Below, piece after piece: positions 14,524-49,973 of a stretch of 64,000 nt of DNA. Source of the DNA: Neglectibacter timonensis (GTDB taxonomy: Bacteria; Bacillota; Clostridia; Oscillospirales; Acutalibacteraceae); the NCBI RefSeq assembly GCF_900048895.1, contig NZ_LT160640.1:248001-312000 (forward strand), in the 5' to 3' direction. Every line of letters starts with the position of its first letter. Positions within the stretch are counted from its first letter, which is position 1. A program made the translations under genes and the position numbers. The notes under the pieces were generated by a model. The model was not told where the DNA came from and ran no database searches. It saw only the letters and a list, made by a program, of their open reading frames with translations.

Positions 14524-14570
14524 AACAGCAAAGACAAGCGGAATATCCGGGAAAAGGAGAGTTTCGACTT

Positions 14571-20599: not shown

Positions 20600-20660
20600 A
20601 GAGCGGTTTGAACAAGGAGGGCCGGTCTCCAATAGCCCTAAAAAACAAAAAAACAGAAAG

Positions 20661-20703
20661 CGCGGAGCAGGGAAACACAGCTTTCCTTGCCCCGCGTTCT
20701 CTT
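20661..20703 (+). terminator. Terminator of the glycogen operon
   Basis: A 15-base stem (20661-20675 with 20682-20696) with one mismatch and one wobble is followed by TTCTCTT. The rest of the gap from 20600 to 20940 shows no convincing gene. Confidence 0.65.
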
Positions 20704-20941
20704 ATCACCGGGAATGATCTGAAAAGTCTCTCAAACAGTGGTTCCCATTCCGGAAGGCATGAGCCCAGGACAGATAAATCAGACAGCTTGTTTCAGGCGG
20801 GCGGGGCTGAACCATCTGCAGCTGTCGTACGGATGCAGGATGCGGAGGTCAAAAACAGCCGGCCGGTTTTTGGCGAACTTTCAGGAGCGGCGGGAATTTC
20901 TTTCTGAATTCTGAAACCGGAGGCTGTTCGGGCTGATTCAC

Positions 20942-20970
20942 TTGTATGGGGCGGAGGTTTGTGGTATAGT
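20942..20970 (+). promoter_or_regulatory. Promoter of the ligase-like gene pair
   Basis: TTGTAT (20942-20947), 17 bases, TATAGT (20965-20970), 57 bases before the chosen start at 21027. Confidence 0.55.
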
Positions 20971-21026
20971 TAACAGGTCATACGGCAGCCTTGCCGAATT
21001 TTGAAGAGCAGATAAGGAATTGCTTT

Positions 21027-22535: not shown

Positions 22536-22598
22536 TAAGATAACCGCAGCCGCCAATTTCTGGGCGAAATCAAACTGTGAAAATAACGGAGTTGTTCC

Positions 22599-24209
22599 AT
22601 GAAGATACAGGAATTTCGATCCAAATTAGAAGAAAAACTCTCTGTTCTGGTACTCGTTTTACTGGTGATTCAGCCGGTGCTGGACGTGTTTTCTTATTTT
22701 CTGGGCCAGACTGGCAGCAATGCTCTTTCTACCTTGGCACGGTTTGCCATGCTGGCGTTTGTGGCCTTGCTGGGATTTTTTATCAGCAGGAAGAAAAAAA
22801 TATATTTTTTCTTTTATGGTGCGATAGGCCTGTTTTGGATCGCCCATATGGTCAATTGCTTCCGGGTGGGCTATCAATCCCCTGTGGCGGATACCACCAA
22901 TTTTCTGCGTATCATGAATTTCCCTATATTTACCCTATCCTTCCTCACTTTTTACGAGCAGGGGAAGGACGTGCGCAAAAGCATTTACTGGGGCTTCGGT
23001 ATCAATTTTATGGAGGTTGTGCTGTTTACTCTGCTTCCCTGGGCGCTGGGGCATCCGGTCTACACTTATGAAACCTTAGGCGTGGGAGTTTTGGGATGGT
23101 TTGCCGTTCCCAGTGCGCAGAGCGCGGTAATTGTGCTGCTGGCTCCTCTTGCTGTCCTTTGGGCTTACAAGACGGGAAAATATCCGATATATCTGCTGAT
23201 GTCAGCGGCCTGTATCGGGCTGATGTATGCCACCGGGACAAAGCTTACCTTCTATTCTATCTTCATATTGGCGGGAGCCTATCTGTTCCTGTTTGCGTTG
23301 AATTTGAAAAAGAAATGCTGGCTCTACGTGCTGCCGCTTGTGGTACTTGCGGGGCTTGCTTTCGGGTTTCGGGCACAGTCTCCCATGCAGGACCGGGAGA
23401 ACCAGTCAAACTATGCCTTGGGCATCTACAACAAGCTGGTAAATGAGAGCATGGAGAACAGCGGCGCGGATGCGGAAACTATTCAGGATATTAAAAATGG
23501 ATTTGATTCTGAGCAAAGTTCTGAGGACAAGCTGGAAAAGGTGCGCCGCAGCCTAATCGGCGTGTACACTGACAAAGAGGTGTACGGTCCCTTTCTGAAA
23601 AATCTGCATGACCGATTTGGCGTTTACAATGTAATGGAGGCCTATAATTATACCACGGAGCCCACAATCCTATCCGACTCGCGGGTGCGGAAAAAAGTTT
23701 TTGCAAAGTTGGTGTGGCAGGAAAAGGATTTTGCTACCAAGATGCTGGGATTTGAATACAGCGATATGCTCACCCCCAATGCCATTTATGATTTGGAAAA
23801 TGATTTTCCTGCGGTTTTCTATTTCTGCGGCTATTTTGGCTTTGCCCTGTATCTGCTGTTCTTTGCCTATTTTATCTGGATAATCCTCCGCGGTTTTGCC
23901 CTGGAGGTGCGCCGGACAAGCGTGGAAGAACGCAGAAAGAATCAAGAAGGACGTTCCAGCGAAAAATCAGTTAAGAGATATCTCGGCAGTCTGCTTGCAG
24001 GTATTAAGGCGTTGGGAAGAGGGGTACAGAGCTTTTTGACGGTGGAGATGGGGGCTGTGGGTATGGCATTCCTGCTGGCCTTGATTGCTGCCCAGATTTC
24101 CGGTAATGTGCTTCGAAGGCCCAATGTGACAGTTTATTTTGCCGTAACGGCCGCCACGCTCGTCCATCTGACCAGGCGGCGAAGAGCGGAGAAAGAGTCT
24201 GAAGACTAA
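22599..24209 (+). CDS. O-antigen-ligase-like polytopic membrane protein (copy 2)
   Basis: This is a 536-residue paralogue of the preceding gene, 63 bases downstream. Shared positions include QPVLDVFSYFL, GWFAVPSAQSAV, LMYATGTKLTFYS and ENDFPAVFYFCGYFG, in the same order and spacing. It carries an extra charged cytoplasmic stretch near residues 435-475 (VRRTSVEERRKNQEGRSSEK) before the last hydrophobic segments. The function is probably transfer or polymerisation of an extracellular glycan. Why two copies are kept side by side is unclear; they may form a heteromer or act on different acceptors. Confidence 0.75.
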   Translation: MKIQEFRSKLEEKLSVLVLVLLVIQPVLDVFSYFLGQTGSNALSTLARFAMLAFVALLGFFISRKKKIYFFFYGAIGLFWIAHMVNCFRVGYQSPVADTTNFLRIMNFPIFTLSFLTFYEQGKDVRKSIYWGFGINFMEVVLFTLLPWALGHPVYTYETLGVGVLGWFAVPSAQSAVIVLLAPLAVLWAYKTGKYPIYLLMSAACIGLMYATGTKLTFYSIFILAGAYLFLFALNLKKKCWLYVLPLVVLAGLAFGFRAQSPMQDRENQSNYALGIYNKLVNESMENSGADAETIQDIKNGFDSEQSSEDKLEKVRRSLIGVYTDKEVYGPFLKNLHDRFGVYNVMEAYNYTTEPTILSDSRVRKKVFAKLVWQEKDFATKMLGFEYSDMLTPNAIYDLENDFPAVFYFCGYFGFALYLLFFAYFIWIILRGFALEVRRTSVEERRKNQEGRSSEKSVKRYLGSLLAGIKALGRGVQSFLTVEMGAVGMAFLLALIAAQISGNVLRRPNVTVYFAVTAATLVHLTRRRRAEKESED

Positions 24210-33889: not shown

Positions 33890-36800
33890 ATGACAAGCAA
33901 AAAGCTTTACAACAAAAAAGGTTTCACCATGGTGGAACTCTTAGTTACCCTGGCGATCATGGTTGTGCTCGCCGGGGTAGCGTCTATGAGTTTGCTTGCC
34001 TATAACGATTACGCCACCTTCAAACGACAGAACGAATATGCCCAGTCCCTGTTTGTAGCGGCTCAGAACGCCCTGACCCGCTACAGCGAAAACGGAGAGC
34101 TGGAGGGAATAGAGCGGCAGATAGAAAAATACGGTTTGCCGTTGGAAAAGGAAATGCTGCGGGACGGCGCCGCCGGTCAATTCAACTATGAGGACCGGCT
34201 TTATACCATCGTCCTCAATAAGGACGGCACTGCCCTGAACAGCAACGGTTCTGAGGAGCCGAATCCAATCCTGCAAAGCATTTTTGAGCAGATTTTCGGG
34301 CCCTATGTCTATGATAAGTCCATCCTGAGCGACGCATCCGTCGCCATCGAATTCGATCCCCGCAGCGGCGTGGTTTATTCGGTGCTGTACAGCGACGTGA
34401 AGCAAGGCTTCGTCTATGGGGAGGACGAGGGCAGAGACGATGGGCATGTTTCCATCAGCTACCGGGAGGAGGAAGCCCGGCGTGGCAGAAAAGTGGGCTA
34501 TTACGGCATTGTGGAGCTTTCAGACGAGACCAGCCGCACCAAGGAAAAACCGGTGATTGACTGGGTGCGCCTGGTAAATGGGGATTCTCTGTCTCTGGAG
34601 TTCAGGCTCACAGACAAATATGCAGAAAAAGCCACAGGAGCCCTGGATTACGAACTGACGGTCTATCACAGCGAAACGCAGAAGCCCATGCTTTCCTTGA
34701 CGATCCGGCGGATTCCCTCTGTAACGGGAGAAGCCGGGGTACTGCTGGACTATGACAGCCTGAAGCTGAAAGCCGAGGTCACGGCCTACGACATGGCAGG
34801 AGAAAAAGCAGGCGATCCTGTGGAATACCAGTTTGCAGCCTATGTGGATGAGAATAAGGTAATCCATCTGCTGCTGGACAGCGTGGACCTTTCAGCCGAG
34901 ACAGGGAAAACGCCTGCCGCGCTGAAGGATACTTATTCCTTCCGCAGGTTTGGTCTTGAGAAGAACTGGGATGACAATATTACCAGGGATATCTTTGTAA
35001 AGGTGCGTGCCAAAGGCAGCAAGTATAAAACCTCGGCCTGGAAAAGCAGCAATACGGAAAATGCCTATTTTGCTTCGGAAAAGCATGGAACGGCTAATGA
35101 CACTGTTCTGTCGGCAGAGTACGGTGTCGCCAACGCCAGGCATCTGTACAACATCCGGTTTGAGGAAGAACGGAATATAACTGGAAAGCAATACGGCTTT
35201 ACATATAATCTGACGGATTCCTTCGCCTGGAGCGGTGAGGGCGGTATCTTTCGGGGACTGTTGGGTTCGGAAATATTTCGCAGCGGTGCGGTGGTTCCCG
35301 AGAGCGCCGGCGAAGGAGAGAATCTGGTTTATACCGCGTTCCCCTCTATTGAGAAGCTGAAACTGGGCCATAGCTTTACATCTCCCTCACAAACCAAGAC
35401 GATTTCAGGGCTTGTTCTGCAGGGCGGAACAGGCCTGGGCCTGTTTGGAACCAACGAGGGCTCAATTACAAAGGTTACGCTGGAAAACGCGCAGGTTTCC
35501 GGCAAGAATTCTGTGGGCTCTTTCTGCGGCGTCAACAAGGGCAAGGTGGAAGAGCTGACCACCATAGGGGGCAGCGTTTCCGGAAACCAGGACGTGGGCG
35601 GTATTGTGGGCAAGGATGAAACCACGGCGCAGAAGGATAACGAGGAAATTCCGCAGCGGATCTATCAGAACCTGCATAACGGCAGCGACGTTTCCGGCCA
35701 CCGGTATGTGGGCGGCATCGTGGGCAGGCTGGCTGCGCCGGACGAAGGTAGAGCCTCCCTTCTGGACTGTACCAACACCGGGCTGATTTTGGCGAAAATC
35801 GGCGCGGACACGGATTTGACGCAGGCGATTAATGATCGAATTACTGATGCCGTGCAAGAAGCTGTTGATGCGGGCAAGAAGATTTCGATAACAAGTTATG
35901 ATGTGAATACAAATGAATACAATATGTATTCTATGTTTCAAACTGTTAATAGGGATTTTACGGACCTCAGTCCAGATGGATATCCTCTTTTTAATTCATA
36001 TGATGAAGCGGTCTTGACGCAATTACTTGCTGACACAGGTCTCTCAATTAATGGTTATTCTAGTGTGGAAGAATATTGTACGGCACACAAATGGGTACCG
36101 TGTGCTGTTAAGGATCCAAATGGAATTTTTATAAGTAATGATGCGGCAGGAAATGTGCATAACTATTCAGTTATATTGGTTTCTAGAAAAATAAGCAGTA
36201 GTGCCACAAGTGCTCAGCGAAGTGAATTTGCTTATTACAATGGAAAGTATTATTATCATACGAACACTCGAAATACTGGCGTAAAAATTGAAGAGGATTC
36301 ACTTACAAACCGGGAAACCTCAATTGATTGGTATACTGATCCCACAAAAAATTGGTTTGAATATACCCCCGAAATCAGCACAGGGCAATTAAACCCTGTG
36401 GAGGGTACCACAACCTTTAAAAATGAGCCCTCCTATCTGGGCGGTATTGTGGGCTTTGCGGACGGGAAAGGGGTTTCCGGTACTGGGAAGGGCTTTACCA
36501 TTGAGAATTGTGTCTCCACACCCAGTGCGGACGCGGAACAAATTCGGACATTGCTGGAGGAAGACGCGGCCTATGAGCAGGAAACGGAGCACGCAGGGGA
36601 TCACCTACCTCTGCTGGGCGTATATGCGGGCGGCATCGCCGGTTATGCGGATAAAGCGGTAATCACCGGCTGTTCCACAGAGGGCGGTTATGTGGTAGGC
36701 TCCCACTATGTAGGCGGCATCCTGGGCTTTGGAGAAGAAACAGAGCTCAAGGGCGGCAGCTCAAACGCGGCCAATGCGGTGGGACGGTATTTTGTGGGCG

Positions 36801-39800
36801 GCGTAGTGGGCGCGAACTGCCTGCCGCAGCGGGATACAACTAAAAATGTTCTGGATGCAAACGGATTTGTGCGTGTGAGCACAAACGCCTCTACGGATAC
36901 AGTGTTGGACAACTGGACCAACCGGGGCGTGGTGGTGGCCACCAAGACCTACGGCGGCGGCTTGACCGGTTACAACGCCGGCGTTGTTAAGGACTGCGGC
37001 AGCGATGTGGAGCCTTCGGGCTTTATGCAGGAGGTCTCTCAAACCTACGGCGGCAGCCAGCTGGGCGGCCTTGTGGGCTATAACTGCGGCAGCCTGACCT
37101 CGGAAAGTCTTTCCGGAATCACCGCCTATGTGGCGGGCAAGGATTATATCGGCGGCCTGATCGGCTATAACGATGCTTTGGAAAACACAGCTTTTTACGG
37201 CTATTCCTTTGCGGGCGGCTCAGTGATCGGCAGGGATTTCGTAGGCGGTATTGCGGGAGTGAACCTGAGCCCCAATCTGTACCGGCACGAGGAAGCTGCT
37301 GGTGAGAAGCCGGGTTGGGAAATGCATACGCTTTATTCGAATCCCAATCTGGTGCAGGGCCGGTATTGCGTGGGCGGTGCTGTGGGCGGAAACCTGCTGT
37401 ATCAGGCGGTAGCCAACGCGAACGACCCTGTTGACGCCAGCTTCGACGCGGACAATTTCCTGGGAAAAGTGGAGGCGGACGCGTTTGCAGGCGGTTTTAT
37501 CGGCCTGAATATGATGGTGAAGGCTCCAGATGACGCCAGATCGGTGACGAAGCTGATAACCGATTGCAGCTCCGCCGCTGCGGACGCTTCTGCGGAAGAA
37601 AGGCAGAAGGCGCTGGAAGAAGCTGTCGGAGAGCTGGCCTCTGTCGGTTCGAAGGAGGCGGGGAGCAGTGGAATAGAATCCTCCGGCACAGTGATGAAGA
37701 TTACCGGCCAGAAGGATGGAAACAGAAGCCATCTGGGGGGAATCACCGCAAAGGTATATGTGGGCGGCATCCTGGGCTACAACGTGCAGGACACCTCTCT
37801 GGAAATTTCTTCCCTGATTAACGGGACCCCGGTCACCGCCACAGGATTTCTCATTGCGGAGGAACTTACCGGAACGGACAATCTGGATCTCTATGCGGAC
37901 AATGCAAAGAAGACCTACTCCTATGCGGGCGGCATTGTGGGCAAATGCTCGGAGAGCATGAAGATAACAAACTGCTCGGCAGACGATACGGGCCGGGTCA
38001 TCAGTTCAGGCACCTACACCGGGGGACTGGTGGAGGTCAACGAAGGAAGCATCAATTTGTGCAAGGCGGCGAACCTGGGCCAGCAGACGCAGAATTATGT
38101 AGGCGGCATCGTGGGCCTGAATAAGCCCCAAGGCAGCATTGTAAAGCCGGAACTGAACGGAAAGACCGTTACCGGGAAAAACATGGTTGGGGGCATTGCG
38201 GCCGACAACTATGGCACTGTAACAGGCGTTTCTGAGGATTCTGAGGGGAAAATCGAACTTCGGGGCACGGTTTACGGTTACGGAGAGAATGTGGGCGGTA
38301 TTGCAGGGTATTCTCACAATCCCACCCCGGATGAGGGCACTGAGCTGAAACCGGAAGACAAAAAAGCATCGGTATCGGAGTTCGTGCTGGCGGTAAACCT
38401 TTACGGCACCGGAGTAAACGCAGGCGGCGGTATTGGCAACAATGAAGGCGAGATGAGCGATATCTCTTATGTGGAGAGCGCCGGCAACTCCTACCAAATT
38501 CAGGGCGATACCAATGTGGGCGGCATCGTGGGCCGTTACAGCTACACCATTTCCTCCGGCGGCACAGGCGAGCAGGAAGCGAAGCTCACCGGGCTGTACA
38601 ATATCGCCAGGGTTACCGCCAATTACGGCTATGCCGGAGGGATTGCCGGAGTGATCGAGGGGAAAGCCCGAGTGGAAAATTGCAGCAGTACGGGTACTGT
38701 CAGCGTGCTGGGTAAAAAGAGTGCGCATATCACCGCGGCGGGCGGCATTACCGGGCATCTGCGGGAAGGCAGCATTTCCCATTGTACAGATACCGGCAGC
38801 GTGGAAGCGCTGAAGGGCGCGGCAGGCGGCATTGTTGGAATCAACAATGGAACGGTTGCGGACTGTACTGTGAAGGATTCCGGAACTCCAGGCAGCCTGA
38901 ACGCGGTAACGCTGACTGTAAACGGAGGTACCCACGCAGGCGGCATTGCCGGCCAAAATACCGGCAAGATTAACGGCTGCAAAGTCGACGGCCTGAAGCT
39001 CACCACTCCCGGGGACAGAAACGGGGGATATCTGGGCGGCATTGCAGGAGAAAACGCGAAGGCGGCGCCGGATAAGGGAGCCGCAGAGTCAGAGGCGGAG
39101 GCTCCGGAAATTACCAGATTCTCCGTGCGCCTGCTCAAGGTGACTACCGGCTCTTCCAGCGTGGCCGCAGGCGGCGTGGCGGGCCTGAACGGGGAAGGGG
39201 CGAAGGTTACCGGAGCGGCGGGAACAGTCAATGTGGATACCGTGGAGCTGGGCTTCACTGCACAGGACCTGAACCATTTCGGGTACCTGGGCGGAGCTGT
39301 GGGCAAAAACCTGGGCGAGGCTGTAAATTGCAGCCTGAAGACCGTCACGGTTTTGGGTACGGCCAACGACCCTGCAAACCCGCCGAAATTCAGCCTGAGC
39401 TATGACTATGAGACTGAGGGGGCCGAAATTTACGGCTATGGCGGTCTTGTGGGCGTGAATGGAACCGCAGACAGCAGGAACCCGGTGGGCGCGGTGGTTT
39501 CGAATTGCGTGCTCAATGGGGTGAAAGTATCCGTCATCGGCGCTTCCGGCAACATTGCCTGCGCGGGCGGCGCGGCGGGCGTCAACGGCAAGACGGCGAA
39601 AATAAAGAATGTTACCCTGGCGGACGCGAGCACAGATAAAAACGCGGCGTGCTCTGTCACCGCTTCAGATATCGCCCATACCGGCGGTATGGTGGGGTAC
39701 AATTACGGCCTCCTGGAGCGTATCGGAAAATCGCGGGAAGCCAAGTTCGGCGATGGCTCCACGACAGAGAGCGAGGCAGCCCGCCGGGCTTCCGGCGACG

Positions 39801-41152
39801 ATGCGACCGTAATGACAGTAGAAACTAGCAAGGGGCATACCGGCGGGATTGTGGGCTACAACAAGTCCACGGGCCAGCTGATTGACTGTGCCACGGGGAA
39901 GAAGTGGAGCGTGAAGGCCAATAATCACAGCCAGGACAGCGGCGCGGGCGGCATCATCGGCTACAACTCCTCCTCTGCTGAAATTCTGCGTTGTGATAAT
40001 TGGGCTGCTGTGACAAAAAATGTTATCGGTGACAGCGCAGCCGGTATCGCGGGCAGGAACGAGGTCGCAAACGGAAATTGGTACATGGAGGACTGCAACA
40101 ACTTTGGCGCCATAGACGGAAGGAGAACCGGCGGTATCATCGGCTGTCTGAAATACAACGGCGGAACACTGTACAACTGCTCCAATTACGGTGCGGTGAA
40201 GGGCTCCTCTGACCCGAGCGGCGGTATTCTCGGTATGGTGTACAGCAATACAGCAAACGAGGTGCTGACAATTACCTCCTGCAAAAATTACGGCAGCCTG
40301 GCGGACGGCAGCAGCAGCCATGTCGGAGGCATTGTAGGACTAATCCACAGCAGATGCGTAAATTTCACGGCGGAAATTTCAGACTGTGTGAACACAGGTG
40401 TAGTGAAGGTGGGCGGAACTGCTTCTGCCGGTATTGTTGCGGGCGGAGAAAGTAAAACGCCGGCAAAGGGGTACGAAAAGACCCTGGTTATCAAAAATTG
40501 CAAAAATTATGGAATTCCTACAGGACATTCGATGACTGATCAATTCAGCGGAATTCTTTACGAAGCCGATAAAGTTAGTACCAACAATGTTCTGCTTGTG
40601 GATTGCTTCGGCGCAGCAGGTTTGACGTATCGAAACGGGGAACTGAACAGCTTGATTCAATATCCCATAGCCCCTGACGGTCTGATAGAAAAAGACACAA
40701 CAAATGAATGGAACAATTATTGGTTTACCAATGCGGAACGCACGAAAAGCAGCATTCCTGGAATTACAGTTGAAAGTGGTATCTATAATAAACAAGATCT
40801 TATAAATATAGTGGATGGGGATAAGAATTCCTCCTGCGTATTCCAGGCGTCTAGCGGATCAGGCAATGAAGTGAAGATCACTCTGAACTTTGAGAAACCG
40901 ATTACATTCAGCACAGCCGAGTTCTATTTAACAGGTGATCTGAGTACAAGCGAAAAAAATACACTGTTCTATGTGGTAAATCCCGGAGATACGCCTGTGG
41001 AATTTGGTGAATTTGTTGAAATTGAAGGGTCAGACGGGGAGTTTTATCGGGCAAAAGGTGCAGAAGTAACCGCATCGCAGGTGATTTTTTCCATAAAAGC
41101 GAAAAATCCTAATATGCCTTTGACCTTGTTCGAATTGGGCTTTGATGGATAG
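33890..41152 (+). CDS. Giant prepilin-like surface protein with GLUG repeats
   Basis: This 2,420-residue protein starts at the ATG at 33890, after GAGGG; a GTG/ATG at 33848 has no ribosome-binding site. The N-terminus KKGFTMVELLVTLAIMVVLA is a type IV prepilin signal: cleavage after Gly11, Phe at +1, Glu at +5. Residues ~500 to ~2,200 hold dozens of GLUG-type repeats (GGIVGRLAAPDEG, GGILGFGEETELKGG, GGIAGYSHNP), a beta-rich adhesin repeat. The last ~110 residues (SSGSGNEVKITLNFEKPITF) look like a discoidin-type beta-sandwich. Two segments (35815-36400 and from ~40480) are much more AT-rich. The TAG at 41150 is in frame with 1,119 further sense codons. It is probably a pilus-exported adhesin or a giant minor pilin. 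Confidence 0.88.
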   Translation: MTSKKLYNKKGFTMVELLVTLAIMVVLAGVASMSLLAYNDYATFKRQNEYAQSLFVAAQNALTRYSENGELEGIERQIEKYGLPLEKEMLRDGAAGQFNYEDRLYTIVLNKDGTALNSNGSEEPNPILQSIFEQIFGPYVYDKSILSDASVAIEFDPRSGVVYSVLYSDVKQGFVYGEDEGRDDGHVSISYREEEARRGRKVGYYGIVELSDETSRTKEKPVIDWVRLVNGDSLSLEFRLTDKYAEKATGALDYELTVYHSETQKPMLSLTIRRIPSVTGEAGVLLDYDSLKLKAEVTAYDMAGEKAGDPVEYQFAAYVDENKVIHLLLDSVDLSAETGKTPAALKDTYSFRRFGLEKNWDDNITRDIFVKVRAKGSKYKTSAWKSSNTENAYFASEKHGTANDTVLSAEYGVANARHLYNIRFEEERNITGKQYGFTYNLTDSFAWSGEGGIFRGLLGSEIFRSGAVVPESAGEGENLVYTAFPSIEKLKLGHSFTSPSQTKTISGLVLQGGTGLGLFGTNEGSITKVTLENAQVSGKNSVGSFCGVNKGKVEELTTIGGSVSGNQDVGGIVGKDETTAQKDNEEIPQRIYQNLHNGSDVSGHRYVGGIVGRLAAPDEGRASLLDCTNTGLILAKIGADTDLTQAINDRITDAVQEAVDAGKKISITSYDVNTNEYNMYSMFQTVNRDFTDLSPDGYPLFNSYDEAVLTQLLADTGLSINGYSSVEEYCTAHKWVPCAVKDPNGIFISNDAAGNVHNYSVILVSRKISSSATSAQRSEFAYYNGKYYYHTNTRNTGVKIEEDSLTNRETSIDWYTDPTKNWFEYTPEISTGQLNPVEGTTTFKNEPSYLGGIVGFADGKGVSGTGKGFTIENCVSTPSADAEQIRTLLEEDAAYEQETEHAGDHLPLLGVYAGGIAGYADKAVITGCSTEGGYVVGSHYVGGILGFGEETELKGGSSNAANAVGRYFVGGVVGANCLPQRDTTKNVLDANGFVRVSTNASTDTVLDNWTNRGVVVATKTYGGGLTGYNAGVVKDCGSDVEPSGFMQEVSQTYGGSQLGGLVGYNCGSLTSESLSGITAYVAGKDYIGGLIGYNDALENTAFYGYSFAGGSVIGRDFVGGIAGVNLSPNLYRHEEAAGEKPGWEMHTLYSNPNLVQGRYCVGGAVGGNLLYQAVANANDPVDASFDADNFLGKVEADAFAGGFIGLNMMVKAPDDARSVTKLITDCSSAAADASAEERQKALEEAVGELASVGSKEAGSSGIESSGTVMKITGQKDGNRSHLGGITAKVYVGGILGYNVQDTSLEISSLINGTPVTATGFLIAEELTGTDNLDLYADNAKKTYSYAGGIVGKCSESMKITNCSADDTGRVISSGTYTGGLVEVNEGSINLCKAANLGQQTQNYVGGIVGLNKPQGSIVKPELNGKTVTGKNMVGGIAADNYGTVTGVSEDSEGKIELRGTVYGYGENVGGIAGYSHNPTPDEGTELKPEDKKASVSEFVLAVNLYGTGVNAGGGIGNNEGEMSDISYVESAGNSYQIQGDTNVGGIVGRYSYTISSGGTGEQEAKLTGLYNIARVTANYGYAGGIAGVIEGKARVENCSSTGTVSVLGKKSAHITAAGGITGHLREGSISHCTDTGSVEALKGAAGGIVGINNGTVADCTVKDSGTPGSLNAVTLTVNGGTHAGGIAGQNTGKINGCKVDGLKLTTPGDRNGGYLGGIAGENAKAAPDKGAAESEAEAPEITRFSVRLLKVTTGSSSVAAGGVAGLNGEGAKVTGAAGTVNVDTVELGFTAQDLNHFGYLGGAVGKNLGEAVNCSLKTVTVLGTANDPANPPKFSLSYDYETEGAEIYGYGGLVGVNGTADSRNPVGAVVSNCVLNGVKVSVIGASGNIACAGGAAGVNGKTAKIKNVTLADASTDKNAACSVTASDIAHTGGMVGYNYGLLERIGKSREAKFGDGSTTESEAARRASGDDATVMTVETSKGHTGGIVGYNKSTGQLIDCATGKKWSVKANNHSQDSGAGGIIGYNSSSAEILRCDNWAAVTKNVIGDSAAGIAGRNEVANGNWYMEDCNNFGAIDGRRTGGIIGCLKYNGGTLYNCSNYGAVKGSSDPSGGILGMVYSNTANEVLTITSCKNYGSLADGSSSHVGGIVGLIHSRCVNFTAEISDCVNTGVVKVGGTASAGIVAGGESKTPAKGYEKTLVIKNCKNYGIPTGHSMTDQFSGILYEADKVSTNNVLLVDCFGAAGLTYRNGELNSLIQYPIAPDGLIEKDTTNEWNNYWFTNAERTKSSIPGITVESGIYNKQDLINIVDGDKNSSCVFQASSGSGNEVKITLNFEKPITFSTAEFYLTGDLSTSEKNTLFYVVNPGDTPVEFGEFVEIEGSDGEFYRAKGAEVTASQVIFSIKAKNPNMPLTLFELGFDG

Positions 41153-41215
41153 GTAGGGGAGAATGCCTTTATCAGCGGAGTTTCCGGTGACGAGGATATA
41201 TCGTTCCGATACGGG

Positions 41216-44200
41216 GTGGGAGAAGCGCTCTATTTGGAGGAGTCCGGCAGCGGAAACACATATGATGCTTTTCGTTTCAATGGCGCAGACCCGGTGATTC
41301 AGGACCTGACCTTTGGCGGACAGGATTTTTACGGCTTTACCCATAAAGACTATGGCTTAACTTTGATTCATGACCTGTATGTGCTGGGGAAAGACAGCAA
41401 CAATCCCAGGCAGAAAACTTACCTCGAAATCGACGGAAAGCTGTATGTGGGCGAAGACGATGTTCCTCAGACCCCTGAAAAACTTGCGTTATCAGATTTG
41501 GGCGGAAAGTTAGAGCTTACTTGGGACTGTGACAATCCTGCCGGTTATAAATATGAGATAGTTGTTACAAAATCTGATGAAGATGGAAAACGGCTTGACG
41601 CTGAGGCGAGAAGTTATTTTGTGTTCGATAAGCGGTTCCAGTATTCCACAGTTGGATTGGAAGGCAGGACGCTCTGGTTTAAGGTAAAGGCATATTCCCG
41701 TTCCGGAAAGCCCAGTGCCCCGGAGTTTTCAGAGGAGTTAAAGTATGAGGTTCCAGCTCAGACGCTTCCGGTGCCAGAGGTTCATTTCCTTCTGACCGGG
41801 CTTGGAGACAAGGATCAATACCGGATGGAAGTAGTGAACGCCGCTGCTTACCAGTACTGCGGAAAGGTGACAATTACTGCAAGCATCAGGCCGACGGATG
41901 GCGGCGGTACCAAAACGTATGAATTAAAGCTGGAAGACGGAAAGATGTTAGATCCGACATATGTGGCCTGTGGTTCCGGCAAAGACAATTACATGATAAC
42001 CGTCCAGGCCGTTCAGGACCCGATACCGGAGGACCCCGAAAAGCAATACGGGAATTCTCCCAATTCCACAAGAGAAAGCATGATGCCCAAGATTGAAAAT
42101 TACGTCAATAGCGCAAAGAATGCCTATATGGCGGCAATCAGAAACACCAATTTGGCCGGGGGGGAAGAAACGCTTGGTTTTCGGGGCGCTTCCCCGGAGG
42201 AATTGGCCTATCGTCTGGAAATGGTACAAAGTGGTAAGTATGCCACCTACTATCGCTCGGAATTTTTGGCTACAGATAACAGTTCAGATGGATTGGGCGT
42301 ACCGGTAGCGTATGCTTTCAGCGACTTATCGGTTCCGGGTACAGTCGACACTTATGCCCCGGCTGTTTTGAACAACCTGCCTGCGGATCTCATGACGCAG
42401 CTGGAGAACGGCGAACAGAAGTATCAGAACGCCATGGTACGAAGCTACCCCATCTCCATGGCCAACCAGATCGTCTATACCGGCTTTGACCTAGGGAAAG
42501 AGTTTACAGTGGAAAATCTGAAGGCTCTGAAGGTCAGCAACGATGGAAAAATCGATGAAAACGGCTCCCCTCTCATTTCGGTGGCGGAGGACGGTACAAA
42601 GACCCTTGCTCCCGGCTATATCATCTTCAAGACCGGAGAGGACAGCTACACCTTGAGTTTCAACGTGTTAGTGAAGGATGCGGGAACCCAAGAGAAGAAC
42701 CAGGTCCGTATTTTCCAGGAAGACCTGTCTCAGAAAAAAGCATATGCCCCGCCGGATATCACAGAACTGACATACGATCCGCAGACTGAGACCCTTTCCG
42801 CCTCCTGGACCTCCAAGCTGCAGGGAACGCAGACCACTCTGGAGACGGGCACGGCGTCCTACCGGTATACCCTGACAGGGGAGACGAAGGACGGCGCGCT
42901 GGTGGAGATCGAGTCTGGCACGCTTACAGCTCCCATTCTCTCGAATGGCGGCGCACCCTGTTCGAAGACCTGGAACAGCACAGAGACCGCCAGCTGGAAC
43001 TATACCCATGTCACCCTGCGGGTGGACCGCCTGGGAACAGTAAACGGCAGCGGCGTCACACAGACCTTCGGCAGCACGGCGTCGAAGACAACCGAAACCC
43101 GTCTGCGGCTTTCCACCATCACGGCGCCTTCCGCCCAGCTGTTGGATAAGGACGGCATTCAGTATCGGGTCAGCTGGAACGGCCTGAATGATGCGGAAGA
43201 GCTGGAAGCCCTTTCCCACTATGAGCTGACGGTGAAGGCCACGATAGAAGCGGAAGACGGCACGGAGCATGCGGTGACGGCTCTTTATCGGACGAATGTA
43301 GCAGACGGCCTCAACGAGGCCGGGCCGAAAGAGCCGGTACGGGTGATCGATTTGAACAGCATTACCGGGACGGACAGCGGCGGCAGCGCTTATACCGGCT
43401 CTGTCGTGCCTCTGAGTACGGTGACCCTTTCCGTGCGGGCTATCGCCCTTGATGATGAGGATCACAAGACCTACGGCAGCGGCCTGCCGGGCGTGGAATA
43501 CAGTTTTGTCCTGCCCCAGCGGCTGACTGTGCCGAATCTGAGCAAGCTCACCCTGACGCCGGACGGCTCGGAGATACTCTCTGTGTTCGACTTTGACACT
43601 GTGGGCTTCACCTTTAATTTTGATGGTACGGAGAGCCCGGATAAGGATGCCTACGGCAAATACCAAATGGCTGTTACAGCGGTTACCCATGATAATGTGG
43701 AGACGGTTCTCTTTACAACGGATTCTCCGCTGGTGATGAAGGGCAGCTATCTCAACTCCGCCAGCTGTACTCTTTCCAAATCTCAGGATCTGACGGCACA
43801 GTTTGCCGGCGGCTCTCTGAAGGTAAAGCTCCGCGCTGTGTCTGACCGGAACGTCAGCTCCCTGTGGTCGGAGGAAAAAGAGTTTAAGCTGCCTCAGGTA
43901 CAGGTGGACGCTGTGGATATGGCGGCGGCTATCGGCACGAAAGAAACTGACGTTACTGCCTTTGAAGATAAGGAAGAATCCACCGTGAAAGTCAAGGTGA
44001 AGCGGGATGTCTTCACTTGGGAACAAGCGGAGTACACCGGCGGCTACAGCTTCGAACTGAACCGGATTACCGGAGACGAAGCAGCAAAAACGGATAAGGC
44101 TGAATTGACCTTAGATGAAAACAATGTGCCCTCCTTGACCTTTACCGACGCGGACGGGGTGCTTCAGCCGGACGGCAGCACCAAAGCGGAACCGAAGGAG

Positions 44201-44509
44201 ATTATCCCAATCAAAGCGATTTCGGGGAATACGGACACCTATACCTTTACCATGAACACCAGACGGGCGGGCCTGCTGGACAGCAGCAGCCATTCGACAC
44301 GCTTTGCACTGAAGCTGGATGAGATGCTGGACGTGACGGCCGACAGCTACGACTATGCTTCCGAACAGGCTATGAACCGGCTGGTCACCCTGCTGGAACC
44401 CTGTATGCTGATTCTTATGGGTTTTATGGTGGGCTTTATCATGCTGGCAATTCTGCTGCCCATCTTCGGCTCCTACAATGCCATCGAGCAGTCCGCAACC
44501 TATTATTGA
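41216..44509 (+). CDS. C-terminal part of giant adhesin, fused to PilC C-terminus
   Basis: The frame is the same as that of the giant pilin-like gene and is open from directly after its TAG (41153). The first possible start is a GTG at 41216 with no ribosome-binding site, so this is best read as the detached second half of one 3,539-residue protein, caused by a nonsense change, read-through or a sequencing error. Residues show fibronectin-III-like repeats (PEKLALSDLGGKLELTWD; LWFKVKAYSRSGKPSAPEF). The last ~66 residues (KLDEMLDVTADSYDYASEQA, then LEPCMLILMGFMVGFIMLAI) match the C-terminal end of PilC/GspF, including its final membrane segment. The rest of pilC is missing. Confidence 0.7.
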   Translation: MGEALYLEESGSGNTYDAFRFNGADPVIQDLTFGGQDFYGFTHKDYGLTLIHDLYVLGKDSNNPRQKTYLEIDGKLYVGEDDVPQTPEKLALSDLGGKLELTWDCDNPAGYKYEIVVTKSDEDGKRLDAEARSYFVFDKRFQYSTVGLEGRTLWFKVKAYSRSGKPSAPEFSEELKYEVPAQTLPVPEVHFLLTGLGDKDQYRMEVVNAAAYQYCGKVTITASIRPTDGGGTKTYELKLEDGKMLDPTYVACGSGKDNYMITVQAVQDPIPEDPEKQYGNSPNSTRESMMPKIENYVNSAKNAYMAAIRNTNLAGGEETLGFRGASPEELAYRLEMVQSGKYATYYRSEFLATDNSSDGLGVPVAYAFSDLSVPGTVDTYAPAVLNNLPADLMTQLENGEQKYQNAMVRSYPISMANQIVYTGFDLGKEFTVENLKALKVSNDGKIDENGSPLISVAEDGTKTLAPGYIIFKTGEDSYTLSFNVLVKDAGTQEKNQVRIFQEDLSQKKAYAPPDITELTYDPQTETLSASWTSKLQGTQTTLETGTASYRYTLTGETKDGALVEIESGTLTAPILSNGGAPCSKTWNSTETASWNYTHVTLRVDRLGTVNGSGVTQTFGSTASKTTETRLRLSTITAPSAQLLDKDGIQYRVSWNGLNDAEELEALSHYELTVKATIEAEDGTEHAVTALYRTNVADGLNEAGPKEPVRVIDLNSITGTDSGGSAYTGSVVPLSTVTLSVRAIALDDEDHKTYGSGLPGVEYSFVLPQRLTVPNLSKLTLTPDGSEILSVFDFDTVGFTFNFDGTESPDKDAYGKYQMAVTAVTHDNVETVLFTTDSPLVMKGSYLNSASCTLSKSQDLTAQFAGGSLKVKLRAVSDRNVSSLWSEEKEFKLPQVQVDAVDMAAAIGTKETDVTAFEDKEESTVKVKVKRDVFTWEQAEYTGGYSFELNRITGDEAAKTDKAELTLDENNVPSLTFTDADGVLQPDGSTKAEPKEIIPIKAISGNTDTYTFTMNTRRAGLLDSSSHSTRFALKLDEMLDVTADSYDYASEQAMNRLVTLLEPCMLILMGFMVGFIMLAILLPIFGSYNAIEQSATYY

Positions 44510-44606
44510 GTAAAAGGTTTCCCGCCCTTTACCGGCGGCGGAATTTCTTTGCAGCCAAGGCGCAAAACACTGTGCCGGCATAGAAAGGAAAGTGAGCGTA
44601 AGTTCT

Positions 44607-46109
44607 ATGAAAACAGTGGTGGCCTTTACGGGCAATAAGGTCAGCGTCCTGTGCGGCGACGCACGGGGCGGAAAAATCCGGGTGGAGAAGCTGATCCGGG
44701 TTTCCTTTCCCATCGGCTGCGTGATGAACGGAGTCGTCACCGATACCGAGGCCTTCTGCGAGGGCATCCGGGCGGCGTGGAAGGAAAACAGGCTGCCGAA
44801 GTCGGGGGTAATCCTCTCGGTTGACGGCAACCATGTAACGGTAAAAAAGACCCAGCTTCCCCGAGCGAACCGGAAGAGGACCGGGGAGATGCTGGCCTAT
44901 GATTTTCAGGATACCAACGCAGGCGGCCCCGATTGGGTGTACGGCAGCATGGATCTGGGCCCTGCCGCCCCACAGGGAACGGCTCTCCCTTCGGCGGCGG
45001 GGGAAAAGGATAAGGCTCCGGGGGAAGAGAGGGAGCTTCTGGCTGCCACAGCGGAAAAAGCTTATGTGACGGAGCTTGCCGAGGCTTTTGCCCAGGCGGG
45101 GGTGAAGCTGGGCTCTGTGGTGGCTTCCCGGTTTTCCATGATTCGTCTGCTGCCCTATCTGGAGGAAATCAAGAGCGGAAGCTGTATTTTGGAATCCCTG
45201 GACGGGGAGGTGCTCTCCACAGTGTTGGTGGAGAACGGAAAGTATCTGAATTTCACCTCTTCCCGGGTATTCAGCGACCACGGCACACCCTCTTTCGGCG
45301 GCGAAGTGGCCCGCACGGTCAGCCAGCTGCTCCAGTTCCAGAGCATGCTCAAAAGCGAAAACCGGGCGACTGACGTGTACTGCCTTGGGTTTTCCAAGGA
45401 GGATTTCGACGTTTCCGCCGAACAGATCGGCCTGTTGGGCCTCAACACTTCCGTGCTGGGCGAAAGCCCCTCTGTGGTCATTCACGGCGGCAGTATACGG
45501 GAATGCTTTGACCATGTAGGCGCTCTGGCCCTTGGGAAGGATGAGGGCAACCTGTACCGGGAGATTGCCTCCAGTGATGAGCGCAATAAAAAGCGGGATG
45601 CCTTTCTGCTGAAGCTGCTGCCCCTGCTGTTGTTGGTTGCGGTATTTACGGTGATCAGCAGCTCGATGATCGCCGGAAACACCGCCAAGGAACGGAAGGT
45701 GGAGGAGCTGAACGCCTATCTCACCAACGCAGACAACGTGGCGAAGGAGCAGGCCTATAATGATTATCTGGCGGGTTCGGCCAAGTTCAACGCCATGCTG
45801 GCCGCCGCCACTCAGATGAAGGAGGCCATAGATTCCTATCCCCGGGCAGTCAGCGCGTTGGACAGCATCATCATCAACGCGGGCGTGGGGATTGTGGACG
45901 TATCGATCCAAAGCTTTGACGCCGCCTCGGGACAGCTCAGCTTTACTGCCACCGGCCAGGGGGCCGAGCGGCTCAACGAATTTGTGGAAGCCTTGCAGAA
46001 CACCGGCATTTTCCTCAATGTGACCTATTCCGGGTACAACCTGATAGAGAGTACAGGTATCTATAATGTAAATGTGTCCTGCGTGCTGAGCGCCGCAGCA
46101 GGCCGTTAA
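44607..46109 (+). CDS. Fused PilM/PilN-like type IV pilus assembly protein
   Basis: This 500-residue protein starts at the ATG at 44607, about 10 bases after GGAAAGTGAG; a GTG at 44592 is possible. The first ~330 residues resemble PilM, the cytoplasmic actin-fold component (MKTVVAFTGNKVSVLCGDAR; SVDGNHVTVKKTQL). A membrane segment follows near 340-360 (LLKLLPLLLLVAVFTVISSS), then a PilN-like coiled and ferredoxin-fold part. PilM and PilN are usually separate partners of the inner-membrane alignment complex, so here they are one chain. It is followed by pilO after 16 bases. Confidence 0.78.
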   Translation: MKTVVAFTGNKVSVLCGDARGGKIRVEKLIRVSFPIGCVMNGVVTDTEAFCEGIRAAWKENRLPKSGVILSVDGNHVTVKKTQLPRANRKRTGEMLAYDFQDTNAGGPDWVYGSMDLGPAAPQGTALPSAAGEKDKAPGEERELLAATAEKAYVTELAEAFAQAGVKLGSVVASRFSMIRLLPYLEEIKSGSCILESLDGEVLSTVLVENGKYLNFTSSRVFSDHGTPSFGGEVARTVSQLLQFQSMLKSENRATDVYCLGFSKEDFDVSAEQIGLLGLNTSVLGESPSVVIHGGSIRECFDHVGALALGKDEGNLYREIASSDERNKKRDAFLLKLLPLLLLVAVFTVISSSMIAGNTAKERKVEELNAYLTNADNVAKEQAYNDYLAGSAKFNAMLAAATQMKEAIDSYPRAVSALDSIIINAGVGIVDVSIQSFDAASGQLSFTATGQGAERLNEFVEALQNTGIFLNVTYSGYNLIESTGIYNVNVSCVLSAAAGR

Positions 46110-46125
46110 AGGAGGGAGCAGAAGT

Positions 46126-46752
46126 ATGTCGGTTAAGCTGACGAAGAGAGATAAAATACTGCTCTATATCATGGCCTTCGTGCTGGTGATTTTTGGTTTC
46201 CTTTGGCTGGCGGTTTTTCCTCAGATGAATAAAAGCGCGGAACTGGACGCCAGCATCAGCGATTTGGAAACCCAGAAAGCTCCCATGGAAGCTGCAATTC
46301 TGGGATTGAACGGTATGCAAGCCGCCTATGAGGAGGCAGGGCGCCAATACTGGAATTCGGTTTCTTCTTTTCATGCCTATACGGAAAATTATGAGATCGA
46401 CAGGATGTTCACCAACCTGATCGTCGGCCAATATGGCCTGCGGGTGGTAAGCCTCACCATGGGAACGCCCGCTGGAGTGGCGGTGGAGCCTTATTGGAAT
46501 GGGACGGACGAAAAAGAGGAAAGCACTGCAATCGACCCGGAGAATATCTCCGTGCTGACGGTGCGGGTGTCCGTTACCGCCACAGGCAGCCGGGATTTGT
46601 GCCAGCAGCTGATTGACGATCTGTACCTCAACTACCCCTCCCTGCGCATTACGGGGTATTCCTTTGTGGGGGAAGGGGAAGATAACACCATGAATCTGAA
46701 TTTGGATTATTACATGAAGGCTGTGGGGGATTTCCCACAGGCGGGAGAGTGA
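46126..46752 (+). CDS. PilO-like type IV pilus alignment protein
   Basis: This 208-residue protein has a short cytoplasmic N-terminus, one membrane segment (ILLYIMAFVLVIFGFLWLAV), a coiled coil (SAELDASISDLETQKAPMEA) and a C-terminal beta/alpha domain (LRITGYSFVGEGEDNTMNLN). This is the PilO topology; PilO dimerises with PilN to link PilM and the PilC-PilB platform. The sequence itself is divergent, and assignment rests on topology and position between pilMN and pilB. A GGAGG site precedes the ATG. Confidence 0.75.
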   Translation: MSVKLTKRDKILLYIMAFVLVIFGFLWLAVFPQMNKSAELDASISDLETQKAPMEAAILGLNGMQAAYEEAGRQYWNSVSSFHAYTENYEIDRMFTNLIVGQYGLRVVSLTMGTPAGVAVEPYWNGTDEKEESTAIDPENISVLTVRVSVTATGSRDLCQQLIDDLYLNYPSLRITGYSFVGEGEDNTMNLNLDYYMKAVGDFPQAGE

Positions 46753-46756
46753 TCAC

Positions 46757-48433
46757 ATGAAAAACGTCCCCATTGGGCAGGGGCTGAAGGAATACGGCTA
46801 CATCACTGACGCCCAGATTCAGCAGGCCCTGGCCTACCAGCGAGAAAACCGCGACAAGCGCCTGCGCATGGGTGAAATCTTCATCGAGCTGGGGTTCATC
46901 ACCGAGCGGCAGATGCTGGAGGCTCTGGGCCAGCGGCTGTCCCTGCCGCTGGTCGACGTTGGCACCTGCAATTTCGACATTGCCGCCGTGGAGAGGATTC
47001 CAAGGCAAATGGCTGTAAACAATTCGATTACCGCCTTTGCCGTCACGGACAACAGCCTGAAGGTCATCACCAGCGACCCTATGAACCTGTACGGCATCGA
47101 AGAGGTGCGGCAGGTGGTGGGCATGAGTCTGGACATCTGTCTGGCGGAAAAGGCGCCTCTGCTGGGGGCTATCAATTACTACTATTCCGAAGTCAGCGCC
47201 AGGATGGCTGCCAGGACAGCCAACAGCACAGCAGAGGAGCAGGTTATTGAGGAGCTGAATGTGGAGGAGGGAGACGGCGACGCTCCGGTGATCAAGCTGG
47301 TGCAGAGCCTGATCATCCGTGGCTACAACACCGGCGCCAGCGATATCCACATTGAACCCTTTGAGGATAAGACGGTGGTTCGCATGCGTGTGGACGGCGC
47401 TATCGTGGACTATGTGACGCTGCAGTCCTCCATCCATCAGTCGGTGATCGCCCGTATCAAGATTATGTCCAATTTGGATATCGCGGAGAAGCGCGTCCCG
47501 CAGGACGGCCATTTCCGCACGAAAATCGATGGGGAAAATGTGAACGTCCGTGTATCGGTGATCCCCACCGTGTTCGGGGAAAAGGCGGTTATGCGTCTGC
47601 TGGCGGTGAAAAGCGTTATAGACCATCCGGATCATTTTGGCATGGACGACGACGCCTACCGGCGCTTTATGCCCATGCTGGATTCTCCCAACGGCATCAT
47701 CTACATCACGGGTCCCACGGGCAGCGGCAAATCCACCACCCTGTATCTGGTGCTGGAGGCCCTGTCGGGCAGAAGTGTAAATATTTCCACCATCGAGGAT
47801 CCTGTGGAAAAAAATGTGGCGAGGGTCAACCAGATGCAGGTGAACAATCAGGCGGGGGTTACCTTTGACGTGGGGCTGCGCGCCCTGCTGCGGCAGGATC
47901 CGGATATCATCATGGTGGGCGAGACCCGGGATTCGGAGACGGCGTCTATTTCGGTGCGCGCCGCCATCACAGGACACCTGGTGCTCTCCACTCTGCATAC
48001 CAACGACGCGGTTTCAGCGGTGATCCGCCTGCGGGATATGGGAGTGGAACCCTATCTGCTGGCGAGTTCCCTGGTGGGGCTTGTGGCCCAGCGGCTGATG
48101 CGCAAGGTCTGTCCCCATTGCGGGCAGGCAGTAGAGCCCTCTGCGGAGGAACGGCGGTTTCTTGGGGGCGAGGTAGGGCAGATCATGGTACCCCGCGGCT
48201 GTCCGGCCTGCAACAACACGGGCTATTCGGGCCGGATTGCCATTCATGAGATTGCAGTGGTGGACCGCGGCATGCGTGACTTGATCTCCCGCGGCGCCTC
48301 TCTCAGTGAACTGACCGAATACGTGGTGCAGGGCCAGCACATGAAAACCCTGAAGGAAAGCGGCGCCGAGCTGGTGCGCGCTGGATTGACCACCATGGAG
48401 GAACTGGTGAAGGTGGCATACCACACGATATAA
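46757..48433 (+). CDS. pilB: Type IV pilus assembly ATPase PilB
   Basis: This 558-residue GspE/PilB-type extension ATPase has an N-terminal MshEN-like domain (residues ~1-150). The ATPase core has Walker A GPTGSGKSTTLYLVL, an Asp box and Walker B in DPDIIMVGETRDSET, and a His box (HLVLSTLHTNDAVSAV). A zinc-binding tetracysteine follows (CPHCG and CPACNNTGYSGR). It powers pilus extension at the cytoplasmic face of PilC. It starts 4 bases after pilO, in the same operon. The 116-bp repeats begin directly after its stop. Confidence 0.95.
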   Translation: MKNVPIGQGLKEYGYITDAQIQQALAYQRENRDKRLRMGEIFIELGFITERQMLEALGQRLSLPLVDVGTCNFDIAAVERIPRQMAVNNSITAFAVTDNSLKVITSDPMNLYGIEEVRQVVGMSLDICLAEKAPLLGAINYYYSEVSARMAARTANSTAEEQVIEELNVEEGDGDAPVIKLVQSLIIRGYNTGASDIHIEPFEDKTVVRMRVDGAIVDYVTLQSSIHQSVIARIKIMSNLDIAEKRVPQDGHFRTKIDGENVNVRVSVIPTVFGEKAVMRLLAVKSVIDHPDHFGMDDDAYRRFMPMLDSPNGIIYITGPTGSGKSTTLYLVLEALSGRSVNISTIEDPVEKNVARVNQMQVNNQAGVTFDVGLRALLRQDPDIIMVGETRDSETASISVRAAITGHLVLSTLHTNDAVSAVIRLRDMGVEPYLLASSLVGLVAQRLMRKVCPHCGQAVEPSAEERRFLGGEVGQIMVPRGCPACNNTGYSGRIAIHEIAVVDRGMRDLISRGASLSELTEYVVQGQHMKTLKESGAELVRAGLTTMEELVKVAYHTI

Positions 48434-48850
48434 GGAATCAAAAGAAGCCCTGCGCCGCGAAGTGGCGCTCTTTTCCTACGGAAAAGCACCGGGCTTCTTT
48501 CGGTCTCAATGAAATTTTGCATTTTGAAACGAGTTGGCGCGCCGGTTCAGGAATCAAAAGAAGCCCTGCGCCGCGAAGTGGCGCTCTTTTCCTACGGAAA
48601 AGCACCGGGCTTCTTTCGGTCTCAATGAAATTTTGCATTTTGAAACGAGTTGGCGCGCCGGTTTAGGAATCAAAAGAAGCCCTGCGCCGCGAGGCGTCGC
48701 TCTTTTCCTGTGGAAAAGCACCGGGCTTCTTTCGGTCTCAATGAAATTTTGCATTTTGAAACGAGTTGGCGCGCCGGTTCAGGAATCAAAAGAAGCCCTG
48801 CGCCGCGAAGCGTCGCTCTTTTCCTGCGGAAAAGCACCGGGCTTCTTTTG
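48434..48850 (+). repeat. Four tandem 116-bp structured repeats between pilB and pilT
   Basis: Copies start at 48434, 48550, 48666 and 48782. Copies 1 and 2 differ at one base of 116; copy 4 diverges after about 68 bases. Each copy can fold with AAAAGAAGCCC pairing GGGCTTCTTT as the outer stem, enclosing two hairpins: GCGCCGC-GAA-GTGGCGC and TTTTCC-TAC-GGAAAA. Differences in the second hairpin fall only in its three-base loop (TAC, TGT, TGC). A 48-base tail with the palindrome GGCGCGCC completes the unit. Protein reading is excluded because 116 is not a multiple of three. Confidence 0.9.
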
Positions 48851-48920
48851 CTCTGAGTGAAAGTTTACGGGAAGCTTCCATGGGATGGGCTGGAAGCTGC
48901 TGATACAGGGGGAAAGCTTT

Positions 48921-49973
48921 ATGGCTGAAATGGAAAAATTGATCTTTACTGCACGGGCGATGGGTGCTTCTGATATCCATATTTCCCAGGGGCTGCCGCT
49001 GATTATGCGGGTGAACGGCATCTTGACGAAGCCGCCGATGCAATTCTCCGAAGCGGAGACTGAGCAGCTGATTCTCAGCTGTGTGCCTGCTCAGCAGCGG
49101 GAGCGGCTCTCTCAGGGTCTGGATGCGGATTTTGCCATTCAGACCAGCGACGGCAACCGGCAGAGGGTGAACGTTTTTTCCCAGCAGGGGAAACTGGCCG
49201 CCACGATCCGGCTGCTGAACAATACGATTCCCTCTCTGGAGGAACTGAAGCTTCCCGCGGTGCTTCGGAGCCTGGCCATGGAACCCCGGGGACTGATCCT
49301 AGTCACCGGCCCCACAGGCAGCGGCAAGTCCACCACCCTGGCGGCAGTGATCGATTTCATCAATTCCAACCGGGCGGAACATATCATTACGGTGGAGGAT
49401 CCCATTGAATATGTGTACGAGAGGAAGCTTTCCCTGATCCACCAGCGGGAGGTGGGGGTAGACGTGGTTTCTTTTGCCTCTGCACTGCGTTCCGCCCTCC
49501 GTGAGGATCCGGATGTGATTCTGGTGGGCGAGATGCGGGATTACGACACGATCTCCGCAGCGGTGACGGCTGCTGAAACCGGCCATCTGGTGCTTTCCAC
49601 CTTGCACACCACCGGCGCTGCCCAGACCATCGACCGAATTATCGACGTTTGCCCTCCGGAGAGCCAGGGGCAGATTCGCACCCAATTGGCGGGCATGCTG
49701 CGGGGCGTCATCACCCAGTGTCTGATTCCCACGTTGGATGGCATGGGCCGCGTAGCGGCCACCGAAGTGCTGATCGGTTCCGACGCGGCGCTGAACCTGA
49801 TTCGGGAGAATAAGTGCTACCAGATGAATACGGTAATGCAGTCCGGCGCGGCTCTGGGAATGCACACCCTAAACGCGGATTTGACCCGTCTGGTGAACCA
49901 GAGAGTGATTTCCCGGGAAAATGCAGTCAAGTATTCCAATGATAAGCGGGAGCTGCAAAACTTCTTTATGTGA
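48921..49973 (+). CDS. pilT: Type IV pilus retraction ATPase PilT
   Basis: This 350-residue protein starts at the ATG at 48921 behind AGGGGGAAA; the frame opens at 48885 without a site. It has a PAS-like N-terminal domain, then Walker A GPTGSGKSTTLAAVIDF, DPDVILVGEMRDYDT, and the His box LSTLHTTGAAQTIDRIIDV, as in PilT. It drives pilus retraction and so twitching movement or surface pulling. It lies downstream of the 116-bp repeats and has its own ribosome-binding site. It is followed by a strong terminator. Confidence 0.94.
   Translation: MAEMEKLIFTARAMGASDIHISQGLPLIMRVNGILTKPPMQFSEAETEQLILSCVPAQQRERLSQGLDADFAIQTSDGNRQRVNVFSQQGKLAATIRLLNNTIPSLEELKLPAVLRSLAMEPRGLILVTGPTGSGKSTTLAAVIDFINSNRAEHIITVEDPIEYVYERKLSLIHQREVGVDVVSFASALRSALREDPDVILVGEMRDYDTISAAVTAAETGHLVLSTLHTTGAAQTIDRIIDVCPPESQGQIRTQLAGMLRGVITQCLIPTLDGMGRVAATEVLIGSDAALNLIRENKCYQMNTVMQSGAALGMHTLNADLTRLVNQRVISRENAVKYSNDKRELQNFFM

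Follow-up and report, generated by a model that had tools for sequence, protein, structure and literature searches.

A giant prepilin-like adhesin gene split by an in-frame TAG in a probably disabled type IV pilus locus of Neglectibacter timonensis

Within the 64,000-nucleotide stretch of Neglectibacter timonensis DNA analysed here, hereafter the window, a giant open reading frame (ORF) with a prepilin-like start ends at a TAG, and the same frame is open again from the next codon. This raises the question of whether the TAG is a nonsense mutation, a site of phase-variable or programmed read-through, a base-calling error or the natural end of a gene. The adhesin frame comprises the following features:

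33890..41149, + strand: 5′ part of the giant prepilin-like adhesin gene (2,420 codons; N_methyl, Glug, homology to other giants)
33911..33982, + strand: class III (prepilin) signal (N_methyl match, G000:C14:281911-281982, E cut-off of 1)
41150..41152, + strand: in-frame TAG, a probable nonsense codon (in six relatives single ORFs span both parts with no stop between)
41153..44311, + strand: 3′ part of the giant adhesin gene, severed by the TAG (1,053 codons, same frame; homologous to the C-terminal parts of six giants)
44312..44509, + strand: pilC remnant, the last 65 codons of the platform protein and its stop, fused in frame to the adhesin (Pfam, NCBIfam, BLAST to family PilCs)

The upstream ORF opened with an ATG at 33890 and ran for 2,420 sense codons up to the TAG (41150–41152). 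Its prepilin motif was recognised by Pfam N_methyl (E 1.7e-6) and by NCBIfam TIGR02532 (E 6e-6), and the hallmarks of a class III signal, namely a G at −1, a hydrophobic helix and an E at +5, were all found, in agreement with an alignment of five giants. A Pfam Glug match (E 3e-4) was also obtained, and the upstream part contained 32 GGhxG/GLUG-like motifs, which started at residues 570–2146 and stopped well ahead of the TAG; the downstream part contained none. On the giants in general, Pfam named little apart from N_methyl and Glug. The predicted structure of residues 1–515 (mean pLDDT 60.9) showed a helix at residues 14–67 followed by mixed strands and helices, and a Foldseek search with this N-terminal model yielded nothing within an E cut-off of 0.001 and listed no pilin in its best 50 rows. 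The giant gene had a GC content of 0.53, with dips to 0.36 at 35990–36289 and to 0.40–0.42 at 40490–41089; the second dip finished just 5′ of the TAG.

Following the TAG, the frame remained open for 1,118 sense codons and ended at a TGA (44507–44509). The sequence-only reading had located the TAG and the reopening of the frame correctly and had given 1,119 sense codons. Among 2,000 first-order Markov sequences simulated at the same length, the longest open run in the three frames was 259 codons, and the probability of 1,118 open codons was 5e-15 as calculated from codon-position composition. As had been claimed, the downstream part had no convincing start: the first ATG, GTG or TTG 3′ of the TAG was the GTG at 41216, with a GAGGA approximately 19 nucleotides 5′ of it, which is too distant for a usual ribosome-binding site. 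The TAG was the sole stop in 3,473 adhesin codons and was not within a homopolymer run; no tandem repeat was found at it. The GC3 values of the two parts were alike (0.600 and 0.625). The predicted model of residues 1–1053 of the downstream part was dominated by strands and, at a mean pLDDT of 44.9, was not usable.

The end of this frame proved to be of a different kind. Residues 1054–1118 of the downstream part corresponded to the C-terminus of PilC/GspF (Pfam T2SSF, E 2.5e-7, model positions 73–125; NCBIfam GspF, E 8.8e-11), and five NCBIfam PilC/GspF models matched the downstream part at residues 1054–1111 only, with approximately their last 50–60 positions. Against six PilCs of the family, the match began at residue 1054–1055, which places the switch in the identity of the frame at about 44312, and stopped 0–5 residues short of the PilC C-termini; identities were 43–69%, the best being that to G254 (69%). 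A GEE[S/T]G stretch found just ahead of the matching tail in four PilCs was absent from the window. Because residues 1054–1118 are PilC tail, the adhesin sequence amounts to 2,420 + 1,053 codons, and the original description of a 3,539-codon adhesin was overstated, as it had included the last 65 codons. For annotation this is a pitfall: with 1,053 of 1,118 codons belonging to the adhesin, the downstream piece would still receive the name of a PilC-domain protein. A functional adhesin–PilC fusion was rejected, as PilC was a gene of its own across the six family PilCs and the six loci compared. Given the topology of PilC, a tail fused to the adhesin would moreover have the wrong orientation.

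Long matches extending past the prepilin signal occurred at five of the 19 loci recovered from named genomes: those of Faecalicatena faecalis, Gemmiger formicilis, Coprococcus comes, MAG SUG1362 and a goat Eubacterium MAG. The single-ORF giants at these loci were:

Coprococcus comes MSK.16.63 (L058): 3,270 codons, N_methyl by Pfam, full pilC nearby
Faecalicatena faecalis AGMB00832 (L056): 4,186 codons, full pilC nearby
Gemmiger formicilis DFI.6.10 (L057): 3,598 codons, N_methyl by Pfam
MAG SUG1362 (L059): 3,561 codons, full pilC nearby; its contig is the carrier of the G354 giant

No Pfam N_methyl match was obtained for L056 and L059 at E 0.01, yet the alignment displayed the prepilin motif in both. 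The goat Eubacterium MAG (L061) had tandem prepilin genes of 2,093 and 2,302 codons at 9848–23075. An order-wide search with an N-terminal profile gave matches at E 1e-8 in 74 of 394 genomes, the window's own included, many of which rest on little beyond the prepilin signal. In 15 genomes besides the window's own, the N-terminal match lay inside an open frame of 2,000 codons or more; several frames in this search were approximately 2,150–2,450 codons long and the longest reached 5,261. The latter, a prepilin-type frame starting at 4498 on G562:C14 (L148), exceeds the stretch examined. The sequence-only reading had found a prepilin signal on a protein of this size remarkable; this was borne out and holds more widely, as giant prepilins were also present in the genomes of relatives.

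All 11 giants compared matched the upstream part. In six of them (G354, F. faecalis, C. comes, G514, G592 and G659) the same frame ran on uninterrupted into a match to the downstream part, and the other five (L057, L061a, L061b, G562 and G578) had no match to it. The seven full giant ORFs, namely these six with homology to both parts plus that of G. formicilis, spanned 3,118–4,186 codons. The comparison of relatives across the TAG, which had been proposed as a check, thus revealed six without a stop between the two parts; the exact residue homologous to the TAG is uncertain because the alignment of the giants was poor just 5′ of it. The claim that one domain type continues across the TAG failed for the GGhxG repeats, which are upstream only, and held in that homology to the intact relatives runs through both parts. 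Used as a query against the genus genomes, the downstream part recovered itself and otherwise just weak matches or matches to PilC tails, and in the genome contig collection it found no relative; it was present in 2 of 398 sampled family genomes, its own included. The DNA between 40500 and 44600 had no match among plasmids.

In C. comes, G592 and G659 the genes were ordered giant, pilins, pilD, pilC and pilM, and the stop of the giant was separated from the PilC-tail point by 4.9 kb, 5.5 kb and 4.6 kb respectively. In the window, the adhesin and the pilC tail were directly joined and the intervening sequence of approximately 4.6–5.5 kb was absent. Matches to the downstream part stopped at its residues 984 (C. 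comes), 1009 (G592) and 1061 (G659), the last extending 8 residues into the PilC tail, and 176, 98 and 55 C-terminal residues of the respective giants were unmatched. Judged by these alignments, the window giant is nearly full length relative to all three. The G354 giant extended 356 residues beyond its match end. This gene order is not universal, because the G354 and F. faecalis giants sit downstream of pilT, and for that reason the ancestral order of the window was reconstructed from C. comes, G592 and G659. As the nearest intact giant had only about 30% identity to the window copy, the ancestral locus was reconstructed through synteny with other genera. The N-terminal giant query in the pilus-locus comparison consisted of 428 residues. 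ORF lists for the loci were made by a greedy non-overlapping choice that retained some spurious ORFs; the pilC genes of G592 and G659, masked in the list by opposite-strand ORFs, were recovered with tblastn.

Downstream of the pilC remnant, the window encoded the remaining pilus genes:

44592..46109, + strand: pilM-like gene (PilM/PilN-type), open (weak PilM and PilN matches below curated cut-offs; 41% to G254)
46126..46752, + strand: pilO/gspM-like gene, open (weak GspM matches below cut-offs; 41% to G254)
46757..48433, + strand: pilB-type extension ATPase gene, open (T2SSE, 411 bits; 70% to G254)
48433..48866, + strand: 116-bp tandem array of 3.7 copies between pilB and pilT, with terminator-like hairpins
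48885..49973, + strand: pilT-type retraction ATPase gene, open (TIGR01420, 432 bits against a cut-off of 319)

The pilM-, pilO-, pilB- and pilT-like genes were about equal in length to those of relatives. An extension ATPase and a PilM/N/O complex were both represented, with the PilM, PilN and PilO/GspM matches below curated cut-offs. Several units of the 116-bp array had a G+C-rich hairpin and a T run, and no additional copy was present within the window. Compared with clostridial type IVa loci (pilD-pilC-pilM-pilO-pilB-pilT), the window shares the pilM-, pilO-, pilB- and pilT-like genes in the usual order; in contrast, pilD, the other pilins and all of pilC but its tail were not found.

These parts were not found elsewhere in the genome either (3.67 Mb on 14 contigs, rated 100% complete and 1.77% contaminated). 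Besides the tail, the whole genome gave no T2SSF (PilC-type) match at E 0.001 or better. The Peptidase_A24 (prepilin peptidase) profile had no match, and the N_methyl profile matched only the giant itself at E 1 or better, so that no other prepilin or major pilin was found, the absence of pilD and of pilins referring to one profile each. Searches of the N. timonensis genome therefore did not find the parts that would process and assemble a giant prepilin, namely a prepilin peptidase, a full PilC and a major pilin. Peptidase_A24 was present in 12 of 14 control genomes and in six of eight other genomes with the window's pilM type, being absent from G274 and from G354, whose pilD is cut by a contig end. 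According to the excerpt of PMC6916266, assembly of the pilus of the monoderm Streptococcus sanguinis requires a prepilin peptidase, the platform protein and pilins; since a peptidase, a full PilC and further pilins were not found here, the genome should not make this pilus.

The observations are best explained by recent inactivation of a type IV pilus locus through two lesions, a nonsense codon and a deletion that left the adhesin and pilC joined in one frame, a reading to which we give a probability of roughly 80%. The intact ancestor would have been a giant modular prepilin, in which a pilin-type N-terminal helix bore a long repeat-rich, beta-rich arm; in intact relatives this arm is probably displayed on, or at the tip of, a type IV pilus. 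The nonsense codon (TAG, 41150–41152) would have cut the giant after residue 2,420, and a deletion of approximately 4.6–5.5 kb would have taken the end of the giant, the pilin genes (minor and major), pilD and some 340 codons from the start of pilC, thereby placing the 65 remaining pilC codons in frame with the adhesin. From these alignments and searches we infer each of three things: that the join is a true deletion, which genes were deleted and that a pilus is absent. The loss would be recent, as suggested by the lack of any other stop in the adhesin, the open pilM, pilO, pilB and pilT genes and the like composition of both parts. Among the options that the sequence-only reading had listed for the TAG, a nonsense mutation is the best supported, with six of 11 giants open across both parts and the locus disabled anyway. 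Intact copies in relatives and disabling lesions here, the latter known from one assembly, mark the window copy as a pseudogene. Against this reading stand the variable position of the giant among relatives, the identity of only about 30% to the nearest intact giant, the five of 11 giants that have no downstream match, the existence of shorter prepilins and the absence of A24 from G354 and G274 as well.

The deletion would be illusory if the pilins, pilD and a full pilC were truly present and the contig had been misjoined across about 5 kb. The adhesin–pilC fusion is known from one assembly only, of 14 contigs; such a fault is nevertheless improbable, as the missing genes were on none of the 14 contigs by T2SSF, A24 and N_methyl, the assembly is rated 100% complete, and no repeat of at least 14 nt overlapped the junction within 43800–49000, the nearest short pairs starting at 44000 and 44088. 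Retention of the truncated 2,420-residue product as a putative membrane-anchored surface protein is likewise unlikely, although the 2,420 codons ahead of the TAG are stop-free; with no prepilin peptidase, such a protein would stay uncut and be held by its N-terminal helix.

A sequencing error would require a change in only a single codon of an otherwise stop-free adhesin frame. This is decidedly improbable, as the TAG is outside a homopolymer run and the missing pilus genes would stay unexplained; a real nonsense codon, in turn, would be tolerated because the deletion already disables the locus. There is also a small chance that the gene of this lineage once ended at the TAG, since five giants have no downstream match and shorter prepilin frames are known (L061; frames of ~2,150–2,450 codons); the early finish of the repeats also fits a shorter prepilin, and the downstream part would then be either a separate piece or a remnant, deprived of its start. 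This old natural end is very unlikely, because that part has neither a usable start nor another stop in 1,118 codons, and six giants continue through it in the same ORF and the same order. On the same grounds, no usable start and one ORF with the upstream part in six giants, a separate downstream gene was rejected as the main reading.

Programmed or suppressor-driven read-through, yielding a regulated long form, would make use of the 1,118 open codons and their homology to relatives, but it is scarcely credible. The search for suppressor tRNA genes that had been proposed found 52 tRNA places, of which 51 were typed and none had the anticodon CTA; the 52nd was degenerate, with a loop other than CTA, and a pyrrolysine-type tRNA could have escaped both tRNA programs. 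TAG was an ordinary stop that ended 8 of 75 ORFs of at least 150 codons in 104 kb (this TAG included), the RNA around it folded no better than shuffles (z 0.38), six relatives had no stop there, and the long form would finish in a PilC piece. The phase-variable or programmed read-through that had been suggested thus finds no support in the tRNAs, the use of TAG, the fold or the surroundings of the TAG, which lack a tandem repeat. A suppressor tRNA and stop-codon reassignment were rejected together with read-through on the tRNAs, the use of TAG, the fold and the relatives, and a repeat-driven switch on the lack of a tandem repeat at the TAG. The degenerate tRNA-like sequence, at G000:C13:48792-48868 (L126), scored just above the Rfam tRNA threshold and was not called by ARAGORN.

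With a recently disabled locus as the preferred reading, the TAG split itself is ordinary gene decay, and the interest sits in the intact prepilin family. The usual subunits of a pilus machine are 100–200 residues long. In modular type IV pilins, a functional module is carried on a pilin moiety, as described in the excerpt of PMC8179133; PilB and PilC of S. sanguinis have a class III signal, as the giant does, and a pilin moiety with an extra module, an arrangement that the giant probably shares, and PilB functions in adhesion (same excerpt). By analogy, the intact giant may also have been adhesive. The most extreme case of added domains within that excerpt (PMC8179133) is of 860 residues with 12 domain copies, compared with 3,118–4,186 codons in the giants, and the window copy differs from the S. 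sanguinis modular pilins in being broken. The giants of C. comes, F. faecalis, G. formicilis and SUG1362 share the prepilin N-terminus, the GGhxG repeats and a pilus locus with the window; they are single open ORFs, whereas the window copy is split by the TAG.

Giants of this class measure about 3,100–4,200 residues, with one open frame of 5,261 codons, and include those of gut species. In the open-licence literature, none of the titles and abstract starts among the matches listed described giant prepilins of gut Clostridia. We see about even odds that the intact relatives represent a scarcely noticed class of giant prepilins, extracted by type IV pili of Clostridia and presented as very long adhesive fibres, and that a deletion of pilD, pilins and pilC switches the system off in one step. 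The intact family raises two questions: whether a pilus machine can insert and display a protein of >3,000 residues, and whether Coprococcus comes and other gut bacteria use the giant as an adhesin.

The pilus locus was patchy in its distribution. The window's pilB type was found in one of 29 genus genomes (its own, at E 1e-60), and its pilM type in nine of 398 family genomes, its own included; either horizontal spread or repeated loss may account for this pattern.
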